DNA of 64,000 nt from Peptococcaceae bacterium BICA1-7 (GTDB taxonomy: Bacteria > Bacillota > Desulfotomaculia > Desulfotomaculales > Desulfocucumaceae), in NCBI GenBank assembly GCA_000802095.1, contig JUEB01000026.1, positions 62,001-126,000 of the forward strand. Reading direction: 5' to 3'. Below are positions 4,186 to 14,236 of the stretch, piece by piece. A program made the translations under genes and the position numbers. Position 1 is the stretch's first letter, and each line of letters begins with the position of its first letter. The notes below the pieces were generated by a model, which saw nothing but the letters and a program-made list of their open reading frames with translations, searched no databases and had not been told where the DNA came from.

Positions 4186-5295
4186 CTACAGTCTCTTTTT
4201 TGAAGGTATTCCGGATTGGGAAAGAAGGTGTACCGCAGACTCCTGCTCAATCTCGCTGGCAAAGCCAAGCCTGATGGTGCCTCCCTCTCCCTCCCTGACC
4301 CGCAAAATTTCTATGTCGCTTATATTTATCCCGGACCGGCCCAGTGTCCCTGCCATTTCACCGATAATGCCGGGCCTGTCGGGAACGGTAACCACTATTT
4401 CCCAAAGTGCCGGAAGATACCCTTTTCTTCTGGCCGGCATACCGCTTTTGAGGTTTCTGGCTCTGCCCAGCAGCTCGTATATAGACTGCTCATCCCTGTC
4501 CTGCACGGCTTTCTGAAATTCCTTAAGCCGGCTGGTAAAGCAGTCAAGGGCATCAAGTATGCAGTCCCGGTTTGTTATAAATATATCCCGCCACATTTCC
4601 GGGTTTCCGGCTGCTATCCTGGTAGTGTCCCGAAAGCCCCCGGCGGCCAGCAGTGATTTTTTTTCTCCCCCGGGCATATCAAAAAGGCAGTTGACCAGGG
4701 TGGCGGCCACCAGGTGCGGCAGGTGACTCACCGCAGCCACAGAAAGATCGTGCTCGTCGGGAGTCATTATAACAGGCCTGGCCCCCACTCCCTCCACCAG
4801 CCCGGTCATCAGATCGATGCAGTGGGCCGGGGTGTCCTGTGTAGGTGTTAGAACATAAAAGGCGTTTTCAAAAAGATAGGGATCAGCTCCGTTTATCCCA
4901 TCCCTTTCAGATCCCGCCATGGGGTGACCTCCGATAAATACAGCACCGCCTGGAAGCACCGGGGCAGATCCCTCAACTATGGCCGCCTTGGTGCTGCCCA
5001 CATCGGTCACAATGGCTCCGGGAGAGATGTATGGGGCGAAGTCTGCCAGTATGCCCAGGGTCGTTCCCACCGGGGTGGCTATTATAATAAGGTCACAGCC
5101 TGAAACAGAGCTGTAGTCAGTTGAATACCGGTGAATAGACCGGTATTCAACTGCCATTTCCAGTAATTCAGGGCTCCGGCCCAGGCCTATGACCTCTGCG
5201 GCCAGATTCTTTCTTATGATGGCCATGCCCAGCGAGCCTCCGATGAGTCCCACCCCTATAATGGCCACCTTTTTAAAAAGGTGGTTATCTGACAT
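4186..5295 (-). CDS. tyrA: Prephenate dehydrogenase with C-terminal ACT domain
   Basis: Oxidatively decarboxylates prephenate to 4-hydroxyphenylpyruvate for tyrosine. The Rossmann glycine motif GVGLIGGSLG is at residues 14-23. GGHPMAGSE, a family hallmark, lies in the middle. The last 70-75 residues (from about 296, with VPDRPG) form an ACT domain, the usual site for tyrosine feedback. Length (369 aa) is normal for the Firmicute form. The start overlaps the upstream DAHP synthase by 11 nt, so translation is coupled. Confidence 0.94.
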   Translation of the reverse strand: MSDNHLFKKVAIIGVGLIGGSLGMAIIRKNLAAEVIGLGRSPELLEMAVEYRSIHRYSTDYSSVSGCDLIIIATPVGTTLGILADFAPYISPGAIVTDVGSTKAAIVEGSAPVLPGGAVFIGGHPMAGSERDGINGADPYLFENAFYVLTPTQDTPAHCIDLMTGLVEGVGARPVIMTPDEHDLSVAAVSHLPHLVAATLVNCLFDMPGGEKKSLLAAGGFRDTTRIAAGNPEMWRDIFITNRDCILDALDCFTSRLKEFQKAVQDRDEQSIYELLGRARNLKSGMPARRKGYLPALWEIVVTVPDRPGIIGEMAGTLGRSGINISDIEILRVREGEGGTIRLGFASEIEQESAVHLLSQSGIPSKKRL

Positions 5296-6310
5296 CGTCC
5301 ATCTTCCTGTTCATAAGCATGCTGACCTGGCGCACCTCGTTCATGAGAATATTAAAATTTTCAGGGGTCAGGGATTGAGGCCCGTCACAGAGCGCCTCGG
5401 ACGGATTGGGGTGGACCTCAATGATCAGTCCGTCGGCGCCGGCGGCAATGGAGGCCCTGGCCATAGGCTGGACATAGCGCCACTTCCCTATGGCGTGACT
5501 GGGGTCAACAATTACCGGCAGGTGTGAGAGGTGTTTTAGTATAGGCACTGAAGTAAGGTCCAGAGAGTTCCTGGTATAGGTCTCAAAGGTGCGGATGCCT
5601 CTTTCGCACAGAATTACCTGGCTGTTGCCTCCGGATATTATGTACTCTGCGGCCATCAGCCACTCCTCTATAGTTGCCGAGAGGCCTCTCTTCAAAAGCA
5701 CAGGCTTCCCTGCGGTGGCTACTTCCTTGAGCAGGAAAAAATTCTGCATGTTCCTGGTGCCGATCTGTATAATATCGGCATACTGAGCTACCAGGGGAAG
5801 TGTCCGGGGGTCCATCACCTCGGTAACAATATAAAGGCCTGTGGCTTCCCGGGCCTCCGCCAGCATCTCCAGGCCCCTTTCCTCAAGGCCCTGGAAGGAG
5901 TATGGAGATGTGCGGGGCTTGAAGGCGCCGCCCCTTAAAATGGTGGCTCCGGCCTCTTTAACCCTTAAGGCGGACTCCATCAGCTGCTCCTTGGTTTCCA
6001 CCGCGCAGGGTCCGGCCATAACATGTATGGTGTCTCCGCCTATCTCTATATTTCCCACCCTGACAACGGTGTTCTGTTCTTTGAAGTTTCTGCTGGCCAG
6101 TTTAAAGGGCATTAAAATGGGTACCACCTTTTCCACCCCGGGCATGGCCTCAAGAGCCAGGTCGCCTATTCTGGTCTTGTCTCCTATAGCGCCTATAATG
6201 GTTCTTTCAACACCTGCGGAGAGGTGGATCTGAAATCCTGACTTTTCCAGCCTGTCAACAACTGCGTCTATGTTCTTTTTATCTGCACCGTGATTCATTA
6301 CAACTATCAC
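5285..6310 (-). CDS. aroF: 3-deoxy-7-phosphoheptulonate synthase with N-terminal ferredoxin-like domain
   Basis: Condenses PEP and erythrose-4-phosphate, the committed step to aromatic amino acids. Residues 1-70 match the regulatory ferredoxin-like extension of the Thermotoga-type (I-beta) enzyme. The barrel starts near 95 with MAGPCAVE and contains [14 protein letters not shown] around 134-147. GTG start with GGGAGG 10 nt upstream. It heads aroF-tyrA-aroA behind its own promoter and attenuator-like leader (6385-6545). The extension usually confers Phe/Tyr feedback; this is family knowledge, not visible here. It is a paralogue of the gene at 6740-7561, which lacks the extension. Confidence 0.94.
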
Positions 6311-6573: not shown

Positions 6574-6747
6574 GGTCGGAATACAGGAGACAGAATACAG
6601 GAGACAGAATGTTAAGGGCATTCCTTTTATAGCGATACAGGGCTGATAAGTCGGGCATATAAAACTCCTGTCTACTGTCTCCCGACCGGGTAGTATTGCC
6701 CTTAAGCAGTCTCCTGTCTCCTGACCCAAGGTATTACCCTCAAGCAA
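6574..6747 (-). repeat. Gene-end repeat (GGTAATACC / GGTCGGGAGACAGGAG family)
   Basis: Begins at the stop codon of the trp-operon DAHP synthase. Read on the minus strand it has AGGGTAATACC, then GGTCAGGAGACAGGAGACTG, a second AGGGCAATACT, GGTCGGGAGACAG, and finally inverted copies (CTGTCTCCTG, CCGACC). The whole can fold into a long stem. The TGA of the upstream gene lies within the conserved GCTTGAGGGTAATACC motif. Confidence 0.75.
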
Positions 6748-7561
6748 CGTCACAGGCTCCGTGCAGGGCTTTGAGGGAGGGCAGCAGTGCTTCCAGCTCT
6801 GCCGGGTAGAGGGACTGAGGCCCGTCTGAAAGGGCCTCCGGAGGATTTTCATGCACTTCCAGCATAAGACCGTCTGCCCCTGCCGCTACCGAGGCTCTGG
6901 ACAGGGGACCCACCAGCGACCGCCTGCCGGTGCCGTGGCTGGGGTCAGCCACCACCGGGAAGTGGGAAAGCTCCTTGATGGCCGGTATGGCGCTTATGTC
7001 CATAGTATTCCTGGTGTAATTTTCAAAGGTCCGTATGCCTCTTTCACAGAATATTATTTTTTGATTGCCCTCAGAGGCAATATACTCCGCAGCCATAATC
7101 CACTCCTCAAGGGTTGAGGAGAAGCCTCTTTTCAGCAATACCGGCTTTTTAGATTTCCCGGCCTCCCGCAGCAGGGAGAAATTCTGCATGTTGCGGCTGC
7201 CTATCTGAATTACGTCGGCGTACCTGCAGGCTATTTCCAGTGACCTGCTGTCGGTGGCCTCGGTAACAAAGGGAAGGCCTGTTTCAGCACTGGCGGCCGA
7301 TAGTATTTTCAGTCCCTCCTCCCCAAGCCCCTGGAAGGAGTAGGGAGATGTTCTGGGCTTAAAGGCCCCGCCCCTTATTATGGCCACCCCCATCTTTTTC
7401 AAGAGCCTGGCCAGATAAATCATCTGGTCCAGGCTTTCCACGGCGCAGGGCCCGGCTATTATGGTCAGGCTGCCGTCTCCTATTCTGCAGCTGCCCAGGT
7501 CTACTACGGTATTATCTTTTTTAGTGCTGCGGCTGGTGATCATTTTATTCACCGGTATCAC
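6740..7561 (-). CDS. 3-deoxy-7-phosphoheptulonate synthase, second copy, last gene of the trp operon
   Basis: Same reaction as the 5285-6310 gene but only 273 aa, lacking the ferredoxin-like extension. IAGPCAVES is at 35-43 and [14 protein letters not shown] is conserved. It overlaps trpA by 17 nt, so it belongs to the trp transcript and would rise when tryptophan is short. Without the extension it may escape Phe/Tyr feedback; that is inference from family architecture. GTG start. The gene ends inside a dispersed repeat that supplies its stop codon. Confidence 0.93.
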   Translation of the reverse strand: MIPVNKMITSRSTKKDNTVVDLGSCRIGDGSLTIIAGPCAVESLDQMIYLARLLKKMGVAIIRGGAFKPRTSPYSFQGLGEEGLKILSAASAETGLPFVTEATDSRSLEIACRYADVIQIGSRNMQNFSLLREAGKSKKPVLLKRGFSSTLEEWIMAAEYIASEGNQKIIFCERGIRTFENYTRNTMDISAIPAIKELSHFPVVADPSHGTGRRSLVGPLSRASVAAGADGLMLEVHENPPEALSDGPQSLYPAELEALLPSLKALHGACDVA

Positions 7562-8366
7562 ATCCGTTCCTGAGTGTAGCCTTTATTTCCCCGGCCAGCC
7601 GGCCAACCCTATCCACTATCACGGGCAGCCCTTCCCCGCTGTCCATTTCTTTAACTATAGCGCTGCCTACCACCACAGCGTCAAAGTAGGGGGCTAAACG
7701 GCGGGCCACCCCGGGCCCTGTGATGCCAAAGCCCACTGCCAGGGGGTGACTGGTATTTTTTCTTACCCTGCAGGAAAAGGTCTTTAAATCCCCTATCTCT
7801 TTCCCCGCCCCGGTTACTCCTGTTACCGAAACACAGTAGATGAAACTGTCGGTCCGGCCGGATATTTTACTGATGCGCTCATCGGTGGAGGTGGGGGCCA
7901 CCAGGGGAATCAGGGACAGACCGTATTTTTGTGCGCACTCCCTTAATGGATGGTCCTCTTCAACCGGGAGGTCGGGCACGATCAGTCCGTCTACCCCCGA
8001 CTCATGGGAGCTCTTGACAAAGTTTTCTATTCCATACCTCATCACAGGGTTGTAATAGGTCATGAAAATGAGCGGAATATCAGTGCCCTCTCTTATTTTT
8101 CCCGCCAGGTTAAATATATTGGACAGTCTTATGCCCCTCTCCAGGGCATGGTAGGAGGAATTCTGTATCACCGGCCCGTCGGCCACAGGGTCCGAGAAGG
8201 GAATGCCTATCTCGATCATGTCCGAGTGCAGGGCCAGCTCCCTGGCAACCTCCAGGGTGTGATCGGGGCTGGGAAATCCCGCCGTGAGATAGGTGATCAG
8301 ACCCTTTTCCCCCTTTTCACTTAGGGCCTTAAAGCTGTTGGCTATCCGTTCTTTTCCGGTAATCAT
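7545..8366 (-). CDS. trpA: Tryptophan synthase alpha chain
   Basis: Splits indole-3-glycerol phosphate to indole and glyceraldehyde-3-phosphate in complex with TrpB. The catalytic pair equivalent to Salmonella Glu49/Asp60 is Glu52 and Asp63 in [12 protein letters not shown]. The C-terminal phosphate-binding loop GFGITGPG is present. Length of 273 aa is typical. Its ATG overlaps the trpB stop by 4 nt and its end overlaps the DAHP synthase gene. Confidence 0.96.
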
Positions 8367-9556
8367 AATTTCACCCCCTGCACCCCGGCCACTGTTTCTA
8401 CATCCTTGTCCCCGCGGCCGGATAGGTTTACCACCACAATCTGGCTGCTACTCATTTCCCCGGCTATTCTGACCGCCCCGGCCAGTGCGTGTGAGCTCTC
8501 CAGGGCAGGAATGATGCCTTCTGTCCGGCATAGCAGATTAAAGGCCTCCAGCGCTTCGGTATCGGTCACCGAGGTGTAGTGCACCCGTCCGGAATCTTTG
8601 AGATAGCTGTGCTCCGGCCCTACACCCGGGTAGTCCAGACCGGCTGAAATGGAGTGGGCCAGCTGTATCTGTCCATCCTCATCCTGCAGTACATAGCTGA
8701 GGGAGCCATGCAGCACCCCGGGCAGTCCCGCTGTCAGTGTAGCGGCATGCTTGCCGGTATTTATTCCGTGTCCTGCCGCCTCAACACCCACTAGCCTGAC
8801 ACTATCTTCGGTGAAGGGGTAAAATATGCCCATGGAGTTGCTGCCCCCTCCCACACAGGCCACAATACAGTCCGGAAGCCTTCCCTCCAACTCAATTATC
8901 TGTTTTTTAGTCTCATCACCGATCACTCTCTGAAAGTCCCTCACCATTGCCGGGTAAGGATGGGGGCCGGCCACCGACCCAATAAGGTAATATGTGTGTT
9001 CCACATTGGCCACCCAGTCCCGCATGGCCTCATTCATGGCGTCCTTTAATGTTTTGCTGCCGGAGGAAACGGGTATTACCCGGGCTCCCAGTATTTTCAT
9101 TCTGAACACATTGAGGGACTGCCTGGCTATATCTTCCTCCCCCATGTATACATCGCACTCCATATTGAAAAGCGCGGCTGCGGTGGCTGTGGCCACACCG
9201 TGCTGGCCTGCCCCTGTTTCAGCGATAACCCTTTTTTTGTTCATTTTGCTGGCCAGCAGTATCTGGCCGATGGTGTTGTTTATTTTGTGGGCCCCGGTAT
9301 GGTTTAAATCCTCTCTTTTCAGGTAAATCCTGGCTCCTCCGCAGTGCCGGGTAAGTCTTTCGGCAAAGTATAAAACAGAGGGGCGTCCCACATATTTGCT
9401 TAGCAGTAATTGATACTCCCTGATAAATGACGGGTCTTTAACAGTAGTTTTGTACGACTCCTCCAATTCCTCCAGCGCGGGCATTAATGTCTCAGGAACG
9501 AAACGGCCGCCGTAATTTCCGAAGTAACCCCGGCTGTCCGGCAATATATTGCTCAA
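8363..9556 (-). CDS. trpB: Tryptophan synthase beta chain
   Basis: PLP enzyme condensing indole with serine. The Schiff-base lysine is Lys91 in GAHKINNT, the catalytic acid is Glu113 in AETGAGQHG, and the phosphate loop GGGSNSMG is near 235-242. It has the N-terminal TrpA-contact region ([15 protein letters not shown]) of the TrpB1 class, unlike the TrpB2 at 29315-30670. Length of 397 aa is normal. Four-base overlaps with trpF and trpA indicate coupling. Confidence 0.97.
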
Positions 9557-10167
9557 CCTTTAGCCCTCCTAACAAATTCAATAATTTTACCCATGTCTTT
9601 TATTCCTCCGGACTCAACACCGCTGCTTACGTCCACTGCGTAAGGCCTGACCATACGGACGGCCCCGGCCACGTTTTCCGGAGTGAGGCCTCCTGCCAGT
9701 ATCAGCGGGCCGCACCTGAATCCGGCGGCCAGCCGCCAGTCGAAGGTTTTTCCGGTGCCTCCCTTAAGTCCCGGCACCGAAGTATCCAGAAGATAGGCGT
9801 CCACCTTGTACAGACCTGCTTTTTCAAGGTCTTCGGGACAGGCCACTGAAAAAGCTTTGATAACTCTATATTTTAAGGACCTGCAGAATTCCGGGGGCTC
9901 CCCGCCGTGCAGCTGTATGGTGTCAATCCCGGTAAATTCCGCTATCCGGCATATTTCATCATAGGACTGGTTGACGAACACCCCTACCCTGGCTATGAAG
10001 GGGGGTAATGTTGAAATAATTTCCCTGGCCTTTTCGGGACTGACTTCTCTTTTACTTTCGGTAAATATAAAGCCAAGGGCGTCAGCTCCAGCGGCGGCAG
10101 CGCAGAGGGCGGTGTCGGTATCTCTTATGCCGCATATCTTAACTTTTACCTGTCCTGCCTCTCCCAT
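9553..10167 (-). CDS. trpF: Phosphoribosylanthranilate isomerase
   Basis: Amadori rearrangement of phosphoribosylanthranilate to CdRP. The conserved start VKVKICGI carries the catalytic Cys, and the C-terminal part has [10 protein letters not shown] and DVSSGVES, the phosphate-binding loops. ATG at 10165-10167 was chosen because GGGAG lies 8 nt upstream; an in-frame GTG 9 nt earlier overlaps that site. Gap to the trpC stop is 2 nt. Confidence 0.95.
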
Positions 10168-10169
10168 GG

Positions 10170-10955
10170 TCACCACTCCCGCCCTGACAGCTCTCTGACT
10201 TTAGCGGCCATATCCTCCGCCGCCATGATGGCCTCACCCACCAGCACGGCATCTACCCCGGCGGAGCCAAGAATTTTAATGTCCTCGCCGGACTTTATTC
10301 CGCTTTCACTGACCACCACGGCATCACAGTCTCCCATTTTCCGGCGCAGCCTTAGGGTGGTGCTGATGTCGGTTACAAAAGTTTTCAGATCACGGTTATT
10401 TATGCCTATTATACCTGCACCGGCCTTGACGGCCCACTCCAGCTCGCCCTCGTCATGAACCTCCACCAGCGCCTCCATGCCGGCCTCAGAGACCGTTTTC
10501 ATAAGGCTCCCCAGCCGGTCCGGGGACAGGGCCGAGCAGATCAGAAGAACGGCGTCGGCCCCCAGCACCCTGGCCTGGTAGATTTGAACAGGATCAATAA
10601 TGAAATCCTTTCTTAACAGGGGAAGATCTGTTTTATCCCTGGCTAGTGCCAGATACCCGGGATCACCGGAAAAAAATTTCTGATCTGTCAGCACTGATAT
10701 GGCATCGGCCCCGTTCCTGTCATAAATGCCGGCTATCCCGGCCGGGCTGAAATGCTCCCGGATAACCCCTCTGGAGGGTGAGGCCGCCTTTATTTCCGCC
10801 AGCAGCGATACCCTCCCTCTGTTCCTGAGAGCTGCGGAGAGAGACCTTGCTCTGGGCAGGGAGGAAATTGTTTTACTGGCTAAGTCAAGGTTAAAAATTT
10901 TTTTTAGATGCTCAACTTCCAGTTTTTTATGTTCCAGTATTCTTTCAAGAATCAC
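10170..10955 (-). CDS. trpC: Indole-3-glycerol phosphate synthase
   Basis: Ring closure and decarboxylation of CdRP to indole-3-glycerol phosphate. Motifs: SLLAEIKAASPSRG (catalytic Lys), LRKDFII, and GINNRDLKTF. 261 aa, monofunctional as in other Firmicutes. Its ATG overlaps the trpD stop by 4 nt. Confidence 0.96.
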   Translation of the reverse strand: MILERILEHKKLEVEHLKKIFNLDLASKTISSLPRARSLSAALRNRGRVSLLAEIKAASPSRGVIREHFSPAGIAGIYDRNGADAISVLTDQKFFSGDPGYLALARDKTDLPLLRKDFIIDPVQIYQARVLGADAVLLICSALSPDRLGSLMKTVSEAGMEALVEVHDEGELEWAVKAGAGIIGINNRDLKTFVTDISTTLRLRRKMGDCDAVVVSESGIKSGEDIKILGSAGVDAVLVGEAIMAAEDMAAKVRELSGREW

Positions 10956-12001
10956 GATATCGCCTTCCTGACGGCTGCTTTCGATGTAAAATCAGACAGC
11001 TCCTTGAGTTTTTTCAGCGCTTCGCCGCTGTCGATGCCCTGCCGGGCAATTTTTAAGGCTTCGTCAATGGTGGCAGCATTTTCAGAGGCCACCAGTGCCA
11101 GGGCGGCGTTCAATAGCACGGCATCCCTTTGGGGCCCTTTTTCTCCGGACAGTATGCTGTTTATTATGGAAGCATTTTCCTGGGGGGACCCCCCCTTAAG
11201 GCTATCCAGTGGAGCCCTTTTTATTCCCAGTTCCAGGGGGTCCAGCTCAAAGCTATGCACCTTTCCCCCGGATACATGGCAGACCTGGGCTGGTCCTACC
11301 GGGGTGATCTCGTCGGTCCCCCCGGCCCCGTGCAGCACAAAGGCCCCTTTGGTGCCCAGCCTGGCCAGAACACCGGCCAGCTTGGGCACCAGGTCACTGC
11401 TGTATACTCCCAGCACCTGGGCGTTGGCCCCGGCGGGATTGGTCAGCGGGCCCAGCACGTTAAACACCGTTCTAACTCCTATCTCCCTGCGGGGACCGGC
11501 TGCGTGCTTCATGGCCCCGTGCAGCGACGGGGCGAAAAGAAAAGCTATCCCTATCCGGTCCAGGCACTCTTCTTTTTGATTCGGGGTAAGGCCAATGTTT
11601 ATGCCCAGGGACTCCAGAACATCGGCCGATCCGCAGCGGCTGGAAACAGAACGGTTGCCGTGTTTGGCCACTGGAATGCCGCAACCGGCCACCACCAGCG
11701 CTGCCGCCGTGGAGATGTTGAAGGTGTTGACCCCGTCTCCCCCTGTGCCGCAGGTATCCACCACTGTTTCATGGCGGGTGCGGATTGGTGTGGCCTTGCT
11801 CCTCATTACCCTGGCAAAGCCGGTTATCTCCTCAACTGTTTCTCCCTTCAGGCGCAGGGCTATCAGAAGGGCGGCAATCTGGGCCGGGCTGGCCTCCCCC
11901 TCCATAACAATATCCATTACCTCCCCGGCCTGGTTTTCATCAAGGTGAAGGCCTGCCACCGCCTTATGTATAGCCTCTCTGATAAGATCGGTTTTTTCCA
12001 T
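10952..12001 (-). CDS. trpD: Anthranilate phosphoribosyltransferase
   Basis: Transfers phosphoribosyl from PRPP to anthranilate. DTCGTGGDG, the PRPP pyrophosphate loop, and NISTAAALV are present, as are KHGNRSVSS and the DE metal pair (TDE) near 220. ATG at 11999-12001 (MEKTDL) with GGGAGG 9 nt upstream was preferred to an in-frame start 45 nt earlier inside trpG. One base separates it from the trpG stop. Confidence 0.96.
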   Translation of the reverse strand: MEKTDLIREAIHKAVAGLHLDENQAGEVMDIVMEGEASPAQIAALLIALRLKGETVEEITGFARVMRSKATPIRTRHETVVDTCGTGGDGVNTFNISTAAALVVAGCGIPVAKHGNRSVSSRCGSADVLESLGINIGLTPNQKEECLDRIGIAFLFAPSLHGAMKHAAGPRREIGVRTVFNVLGPLTNPAGANAQVLGVYSSDLVPKLAGVLARLGTKGAFVLHGAGGTDEITPVGPAQVCHVSGGKVHSFELDPLELGIKRAPLDSLKGGSPQENASIINSILSGEKGPQRDAVLLNAALALVASENAATIDEALKIARQGIDSGEALKKLKELSDFTSKAAVRKAIS

Positions 12002-12002
12002 A

Positions 12003-12599
12003 TCAGACAACCTCCCTGAAATTATTAACCTTGCTGCAGCCATCAAGAAAATTTCTTAGAATTGTATAGCCGTGGTCGGTCAGTATAGACTCGGGGTGGA
12101 ACTGCACCCCCTCCACACCGATAAGCCGGTGACGGATACCCATTATTTCTCCCTCTTCGGTCCAGGCGCTTATTTCCAGACATTCCGGAAGGCTATGGCG
12201 CTCCACCACCAGGGAGTGGTATCTGATGGCTGTGAAGGGAGTGGGAATGCCACTGAAAACCCCTCTTCCATCATGGTGAATTAGAGACTGTTTGCCGTGC
12301 ATCACCTTTTGGGCCCTGACCACGGCCCCGCCGAAAACGCTTCCTATGGCCTGGTGTCCCAGGCAGACGCCCAGTATAGGTATACAGCCTGCAAAACTCC
12401 GGATTGCCTCGCTGGTAATTCCGGCGCCCTCGGGCCTCCCCGGGCCGGGTGACAGGACAATTCCTTCAGGCCTGGCTGCTTTGATATCATTAAGTGTCAG
12501 GGCGTCATTTCTTTTTACCTGCACCTCTGCGCCCAGCTCGGCAAAATACTGGGCCAGGTTGTAGGTAAAGGAGTCGTAATTGTCAATAATTAGCAGCAT
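12003..12599 (-). CDS. trpG: Anthranilate synthase component II (glutamine amidotransferase)
   Basis: Supplies ammonia from glutamine to TrpE. Class I triad: Cys79 in GVCLGHQ and the His/Glu of FHPES near the C-terminus; LSPGPGRP is also present. ATG at 12597-12599 ([11 protein letters not shown]) follows AGGAGG and overlaps the trpE end by 17 nt. A separate trpG inside the trp operon, not fused to trpD, is seen here. In some Bacilli one amidotransferase serves both folate and Trp; a second copy outside the window cannot be excluded. Confidence 0.95.
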
Positions 12600-14064
12600 G
12601 GCTGTCATCCTCCTCATCAAGGGTTCTCAAGAGGGCCAGGGCCTTGTTTTCGGTTTCCTCAAACTCCCTGTCCGGGTCGGAGTCTGCCACAATTCCGGCC
12701 CCCACCTGAACAGAGGCCCTGTTTCCCTGGAATACTATGGTGCGAATGGCAATGGCGGTGTCCAGTGTGCCATTAAAGCCGATATACCCCACCGCCCCGG
12801 CGTAGGGTCCCCTGCGGGAGGGCTCCAGCTCCTCAATTATCTCCATGGCCCTGACCTTGGGCGCCCCGGATACTGTGCCGGCCGGAAAGCAGGCCTTGAG
12901 TACGTCCAGTCCCTTTATACCTTCCTGCAGATCCCCCTTTACCGAGGACACCAGATGCATAACGTGGGAGTATCGCTCTACTTCCATAAACTGAGTCACC
13001 TTGACGGTGCCGGGCCGGCTTACCCTGCCCAGGTCATTTCTGCCGAGATCCACCAGCATTACATGCTCGGCCCTTTCCTTTATATCATCAAGGAGGTCGG
13101 CTGCCAGATCCATATCTTCCTGCCTGTCTGAGCCCCGGGGCCTTGTTCCGGCGATAGGCCTTGTCTCAACGCTGTTATCCTCTACCCGGACCAGCATTTC
13201 CGGTGATGAGCCGGCTATCACCACATCTCCCATATTGATATAGTAAAGGTATGGGGAGGGGTTATTTCTCCTTAGCCTGCGATATACCCTGAAGGGATTT
13301 CCCTTAAAGTCAAGGTCTATTCTTCTGGAGAGGACTACCTGGAGTATGTCTCCGGCCATAATGTATTCCCTGGCTTTTTTTACCCTGTCCGTAAATTCTG
13401 TCCTGGAAAGGCTCGACCTTGCCGCCCTGCCCCGGGCTCCTGTCGGGGGGGTCAATCCCAGTGGGGCCTGGCCCTCGTTTATCCGCTGCAGTATTTCTTT
13501 TATAGCAGCTATGGCCCTGGCATATTCTTCAGACACACCCCTGCCCGGGCTGGTGTTTACCACAATCCTCAGGGTGTGCTTTAAATGGTCAATGATAATG
13601 GTTATGCCCGGCACCATCAGCATGCAGTCCGGAGCGCCGGCACTCTCCAGGCTGTAGTCCGGCAGCCTTTCTATGCCCCTTACTATGTCATAGCCCATAT
13701 AGCCTACGGCCCCGCTGTAAAACCTGGGCATTTTGTCCAGCACCGGTGAGCTGTAACCCTCCAGCAGCCTTTCTATAGCGTGTAAGGGATTGCCTGAAAA
13801 CAGCTCTACCCCGCCTTCTTTCTCAATTGTGGTGGTATTCCCCCGGGAGGTGAGCAGCGCCTCGGGATCAATTCCTATAATGGAATACCTTCCTATGGTG
13901 TCTGCTCCCTCAGCGCTCTCCAGCAGGAAGGACTTTTTCCCCCGGGAAACCTTGGCGTAAACGGTTATGGGTGTTTCAGTGTCTGAAGGCCACTCCACGC
14001 TGACAGGCACTGTACTGTACAGTCGGGACAGCTCAAGATATGTTTTTTCATCAGGATAATACAT
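12583..14064 (-). CDS. trpE: Anthranilate synthase component I
   Basis: Converts chorismate to anthranilate with TrpG. The tryptophan-feedback motif LLES is at 47-50. C-terminal chorismate-binding motifs include [30 protein letters not shown] and GTVSGAPK. 493 aa is typical. The ATG follows a GGGGAGG site 9 nt away and lies 21 nt after an attenuator hairpin, so it is the first gene controlled by the (G/U)AG leader. Confidence 0.96.
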
Positions 14065-14084: not shown

Positions 14085-14114
14085 AAAAAGCCGGTACTCA
14101 AATGAGTACCGGCT
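14085..14114 (-). terminator. trp operon attenuator terminator
   Basis: Perfect 12-bp stem AGCCGGTACTCA / TGAGTACCGGCT with a 2-nt connector, followed on the minus strand by TTTTTGTG. It ends 21 nt before trpE and after a promoter, so it is a leader terminator and not the end of an upstream gene. Confidence 0.85.
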
Positions 14115-14142
14115 GTTAACGCAAAAATAGCAAACTTAACAG
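14113..14142 (-). promoter_or_regulatory. Candidate trp antiterminator stem
   Basis: CTGTTAA (14136-14142) pairs with TTAACAG (14113-14119); three further pairs (ACC with GGT) could extend into the terminator's 5' arm across a small internal loop. It overlaps that arm and starts just after the (G/U)AG array, as in the Bacillus subtilis trp leader where TRAP binding prevents antitermination. Confidence 0.55.
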
Positions 14143-14147
14143 TGGTT

Positions 14148-14200
14148 TTCACCTCAGCTCCGCTCATCTCAGCTATTCTATTCTCATCTCAGCTATGCTA
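14148..14200 (-). promoter_or_regulatory. TRAP-type binding array: ten (G/U)AG triplets
   Basis: On the minus strand, ten triplets (TAG or GAG) are spaced by exactly 2 nt. Their 5' bases are at 14200, 14195, 14190, 14185, 14180, 14175, 14170, 14165, 14160 and 14155, and a degenerate GAA follows at 14150. TRAP (MtrB) 11-mers bind about eleven (G/U)AG repeats with 2-3 nt spacers in trp leaders. The array, antiterminator and terminator order matches that mechanism. No mtrB was recognised in the window; a HutP-family gene lies 2 kb upstream. Confidence 0.8.
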
Positions 14201-14207
14201 AATATAA

Positions 14208-14236
14208 ATCTATCACAATGATATAACGGGTGTCAA
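14208..14236 (-). promoter_or_regulatory. Promoter of the trp operon
   Basis: -35 TTGACA (14231-14236, perfect consensus), 17-bp spacer, -10 ATAGAT (14208-14213). Transcription would start near 14201, immediately before the first triplet of the array. The -10 is poor, so the confidence rests on the -35 and position. Confidence 0.6.

Follow-up and report, generated by a model that had tools for sequence, protein, structure and literature searches.

On sequence evidence, the leader that precedes the trpEGDCFBA-aroF operon of Peptococcaceae bacterium BICA1-7 very probably places these genes under attenuation control by TRAP (MtrB). In the 64,000-nucleotide stretch of DNA that was analysed (the window), ten (G/U)AG triplets at an exact 5-nt period lie upstream of the operon on the minus strand, between a TTGACA promoter and an intrinsic terminator. 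Nearly all work on TRAP, a textbook RNA-binding regulator, concerns Bacillus, whose attenuators are weak and where the protein seems to favour termination by direct action. The leader is probably a case of this known mechanism in a little-described anaerobic, Desulfotomaculum-like lineage. A literature search on TRAP outside the Bacilli, of incomplete coverage, returned nothing directly on point. With their strong intrinsic terminators and co-varying antiterminator, these leaders offer a clean way to ask if the original switch model is sufficient, and the arrays of relatives point to a predicted TRAP regulon extending to transporters and 2-oxoacid oxidoreductases; this wider regulon and the strong-terminator architecture are the features most worth following.

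A predicted TRAP-binding array in the trp leader

The array reads TAG CA TAG CT GAG AT GAG AA TAG AA TAG CT GAG AT GAG CG GAG CT GAG (Table 1). By chance, about 1e-11 runs of ten KAG triplets would be expected in the window (KAG frequency 0.0247), and the longest triplet run in 60 Markov shuffles never exceeded four. A pattern of seven triplets at the exact period, with up to 2 mismatches, finds the array only once in the 4.75-Mb genome; no further array, including at the trpG-trpD junction, was found in the window or genome with exact-period patterns, a form of search that could miss arrays with irregular spacers outside the window. Ten triplets followed by a near-cognate GAA in the 11th register fit the count of TRAP leaders, which carry about 9-11 triplets 2-3 nt apart. 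TRAP is expected to be an 11-mer ring, and the presence of ten triplets rather than 11 counts against the best explanation.

Uniform GAGAT or GAGCA microsatellites fit the same pattern in three relatives that lack mtrB, so we considered whether the array arose as a simple-sequence repeat whose units read KAG by coincidence. This origin is scarcely credible and was rejected, since the spacers in the window vary from unit to unit (CA, CT, AT, AA, AA, CT, AT, CG, CT) while the triplets are kept, and in the congeners it is the spacers that differ and almost no triplet position: changes among the three congeneric leaders fall at 1/60 triplet positions and 9/36 spacer positions (p 5e-4). A second alternative is that the operon is controlled by another tryptophan switch (a Trp T-box, a Trp-codon leader peptide or a riboswitch) and that the array is incidental. 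T-boxes often control trp operons in clostridia, and this genome uses them, with 16 matches. Control of this kind is nevertheless very improbable here, as a search for a T-box or other Rfam leader gave no family match anywhere in the window, no open frame with Trp codons precedes trpE in the leader, and an array of ten triplets that is far beyond chance and conserved in congeners is not incidental.

The promoter that precedes the array has its -35 element at 14236-14231 and a -10 element (TAGATT/ATAGAT) that ends at about 14207, with 10/12 matches to the consensus, and the congeners have the same -35 element and extended -10 region. Transcription would start at about 14200-14206, which would place the array almost at the 5' end of the RNA. 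The terminator, AGCCGGTACTC-ATTT-GAGTACCGGCT-TTTT (14114-14089), is followed by a U tract at 14088-14085. Its 5' arm ends in CUCA, the complement of the UGAG of the array, and a 38-nt linker separates it from the array. The antiterminator predicted in between has an energy of -13.6 kcal/mol, only modestly better than shuffles (z -1.9). It abuts the last triplet in the window and in both congeners, its overlap with the array in the window being a single base, and the antiterminators of the congeners have the same shape despite different sequences. In the predicted folds, the antiterminator and the top of the terminator are mutually exclusive.

The first-pass annotation had described this leader as ten (G/U)AG triplets at an exact 5-nt period, an antiterminator and a terminator behind a TTGACA promoter, in front of an operon with its own trpG and a terminal DAHP synthase. 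The array, promoter and terminator are all present, the promoter as a consensus match only, and Pfam confirms both genes. The antiterminator exists as a predicted fold, but it does not lie within the array as it does in Bacillus. Downstream of the trp operon are a second DAHP synthase, with an FXD domain (window 5285-6310), then tyrA (prephenate dehydrogenase, by Pfam) and aroA.

Table 1. Features of the predicted trp leader and operon (window coordinates).
Feature	Position	Strand	Basis or remark
Sigma-70 type promoter, TTGACA, 18 nt, TAGATT, TG before -10	14207..14236	-	Consensus match only
TRAP-binding array (predicted)	14153..14200	-	Sequence; chance test; triplets kept while spacers drift in two congeners
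GAA, 11th register, near-cognate, overlaps antiterminator 5' strand	14148..14150	-	Sequence; folding with register blocked; role inferred
Antiterminator 5' strand, GUGA..ACC.CUGUUAA	14136..14152	-	Folding; same fold in both congeners
Antiterminator 3' strand, UUAACAG..GGU..UCAU, overlaps terminator 5' arm and loop	14102..14119	-	Folding
Intrinsic terminator, 11 bp, loop AUUU	14089..14114	-	-20.7 kcal/mol, z -8.4
trpE, ATG at 14064, SD GGGGAGG at 14079-14073	12583..14064	-	Pfam
trpG, anthranilate synthase amidotransferase	12003..12620	-	Pfam
trpD, ORF as listed, likely start ATG about 12001	10952..12046	-	Sequence and gene order
trpC	10170..10955	-	Family by sequence and order
trpF	9553..10176	-	Family by sequence and order
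trpB	8363..9556	-	Family by sequence and order
trpA	7545..8366	-	Family by sequence and order
aroF, DAHP synthase, last of coupled run	6740..7561	-	Pfam

The TRAP protein and the array in relatives

The search for mtrB that the first-pass annotation had proposed found the gene in the same genome (PF02081, 133 bits, E 1e-38), at 318106-318306 of contig 26, the contig that holds the window, 192 kb past the window end. The predicted protein scores over the NCBIfam equivalog cut-off and has 63-64% identity to solved TRAPs over 63-67 residues. It keeps the residues aligned with Lys37, Lys56, Arg58, Glu36 and Asp39 and with the tryptophan pocket of Bacillus TRAP; in Bacillus TRAP, Lys37, Lys56 and Arg58 are RNA contacts and the pocket residues bind tryptophan. 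Anti-TRAP (rtpA) is an optional partner of TRAP attenuation that is absent in some Bacilli, and PF15777 finds nothing in this genome.

In both congeners trpE is preceded by an array, of 10 triplets in one and 9 in the other, and the same position is seen in three further members of the family, in one of which the array has the same coordinates as in the record of Peptococcaceae bacterium BRH_c4b. With mtrB present and the array kept in genus and family, the findings fall on the side of the TRAP reading put forward in the first-pass annotation. Across the phylum, mtrB is found in 200 of 398 genomes, and an exact six-triplet array occurs in 61/200 genomes with mtrB as against 6/198 without it (p 2e-14), several of these six being plain microsatellites. 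The carriers of mtrB include Desulfallas, Desulfoscipio, Pelotomaculum, Desulfovirgula, Carboxydothermus, Thermincola, Syntrophomonas and Paenibacillus. The exact six-triplet pattern finds arrays in 10/32 named mtrB genomes, a low yield that probably reflects missed 3-nt spacers or short runs. Three loci have an mtrB-aroF-trpE operon in which mtrB immediately precedes the array, so that TRAP is encoded next to its target.

Predicted switching by RNA folding

The preferred reading of the leader is a switch that would work as follows. When tryptophan is scarce, TRAP would be inactive and the linker of the emerging RNA would fold as the antiterminator, which would mask the upper part of the terminator 5' arm together with its loop, so that polymerase would read through. 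With plentiful tryptophan, the TRAP ring would bind the ten triplets just behind the promoter, and its 11th subunit, over GAA, would cover the antiterminator 5' strand and free UCAU; the strong 11-bp terminator would then form before trpE. What is inferred in this scheme is that binding depends on tryptophan, that the 11th register acts as the trigger in this genus, and that regulation has this sign.

The leader was folded with the array free and blocked, as the first-pass annotation had suggested. Blocking triplets 1-10 barely changes the antiterminator (0.62 to 0.59 in the window, and likewise in both congeners). When the block is extended through the 11th register in the window, the outer antiterminator helix is lost and the terminator is favoured at nt 109 instead of nt 112-113. 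Occlusion therefore has to depend on either the 11th register or a steric effect, and the folding models make it likely that an 11th TRAP subunit over the near-cognate GAA is the trigger in this genus. Once the terminator has been made in full it is preferred in every state, at equilibrium in the free RNA too, so the switch must be kinetic; attenuator decisions are generally so.

These results also bear on the possibility that TRAP binds the leader but acts mainly by a route other than the antiterminator switch, either through direct termination behind polymerase or by hindering translation of trpE. That the array ends 38 nt before the terminator, and that a ten-triplet block leaves the antiterminator intact, would suit direct action, and TRAP of B. 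subtilis regulates even with the attenuator deleted (PMC3913778). However, direct action would not need so strong a terminator with a U tract, nor a CUCA arm that co-varies with array and linker, and hindrance of translation is disfavoured by the predicted pairing of the trpE SD, which is the same with or without the array block (0.81 and 0.80). This unchanged pairing gives no hint that translation is regulated as a second layer, as it is in B. subtilis. Overall, we consider such a route unlikely, and the attenuation switch remains the preferred reading.

Evidence that the linker and the terminator evolve together comes from a sample of 68 leaders with both array and terminator. CUCA stands in the terminator 5' arm of 32/68 of these leaders, compared with 7/265 control terminators from the same regions. 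Among 49 leaders thinned for relatedness, which removes family relatedness only roughly, array end and linker pair overall more strongly with the terminator arm of the same leader than with swapped ones (z -4.3; 0/20,000 permutations as good). Many leaders share UGAG and CUCA, so what this excess of cognate pairing reveals is co-variation between linker and terminator arm. The cognate linker-arm pairing of the window itself ranks 35 of 60, which, like the modest z of its antiterminator, counts against the switch reading of this leader. Across these leaders, blocking the array weakens the antiterminator in 42/60 and strengthens it in one, and the median terminator energy across array leaders is -16.7 kcal/mol, with that of the window at about -20.

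Comparison with Bacillus

The leader shares with the B. subtilis trp leader a (G/U)AG array before an antiterminator-terminator pair upstream of trpE (PMC3913778, PMC4027176), together with mtrB in the genome and a predicted Trp-dependent termination. The two differ in several respects. B. subtilis has 11 triplets with 2-3 nt spacers, whereas there are 10 here with uniform 2-nt spacers; its 5' stem-loop would find no room here; and its antiterminator overlaps the array. In addition, the operon described here contains trpG and ends in aroF, and rtpA was not found. Published Bacillus attenuators are weak, their U tracts are interrupted, and TRAP can still work in their absence (PMC3913778). The B. 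subtilis terminator is put at -12.6 kcal/mol and the weak, mismatched attenuator of Bacillus halodurans at -8.4 kcal/mol (PMC3913778), whereas the terminator here is strong, perfect and G+C-rich. The TRAP systems of B. halodurans and B. licheniformis likewise combine mtrB with a trp leader array, and B. halodurans is without anti-TRAP (PMC11255114), as this genome apparently is.

The proposal of a Bacillus TRAP mechanism is supported by mtrB, by conservation of the array and, across the phylum, by the association of arrays with mtrB and their position before tryptophan genes. It needs amendment on two points: the Bacillus model does not carry over unchanged, since here the antiterminator merely adjoins the array and termination relies on a strong intrinsic hairpin, and TRAP attenuation is a widespread feature of these anaerobes rather than a speciality of this operon.

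A predicted TRAP regulon in relatives

The contexts of about 100 array regions across relatives suggest a broader role. We consider it an evenly balanced question whether TRAP in these anaerobes forms a conserved module distinct from that of Bacillus, with a strong terminator, a CUCA arm pairing with the last UGAG and the linker and, in this genus, with 11th-register bases, and whether this module governs a wider regulon of TrpP/ECF, TrpX and DctP-type transporters, TrpB2 and indolepyruvate ferredoxin oxidoreductase. Most arrays precede trpE, and the other targets are trpD, TrpP, TrpX-like ABC transporters, TrpB2-like enzymes, indolepyruvate ferredoxin oxidoreductase and DctP-type transporters. 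Most of these targets are tryptophan-related, which gives independent support for TRAP as the reader of the arrays.

In ten loci a second, shorter array inside the trp operon covers the ribosome-binding site of trpD, where TRAP probably acts on translation. Arrays also stand before or over TrpP-like genes in twelve loci; PF17099 confirmed the seven such genes that were scanned, and ECF-type ABC transporter genes follow in eight loci. The arrays of relatives over the trpP and trpD starts follow the same principle as the translational sites of B. subtilis TRAP (trpP, pabA/trpG), whereas the operon in the window has no array at the trpG-trpD junction.

Other arrays precede genes of metabolism and transport. 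Five loci have an array before a gene for indolepyruvate ferredoxin oxidoreductase and/or a phenylacetate-CoA-ligase-like gene, and here TRAP may possibly control tryptophan breakdown or its synthesis from arylacetates. Two loci have arrays with CUCA terminators before genes for DctP-type (tripartite) transporters, a class that, to our knowledge, is not known for tryptophan. In five further loci, arrays lie at or over the start of TrpB2-like genes, which encode a TrpB-like PLP enzyme.
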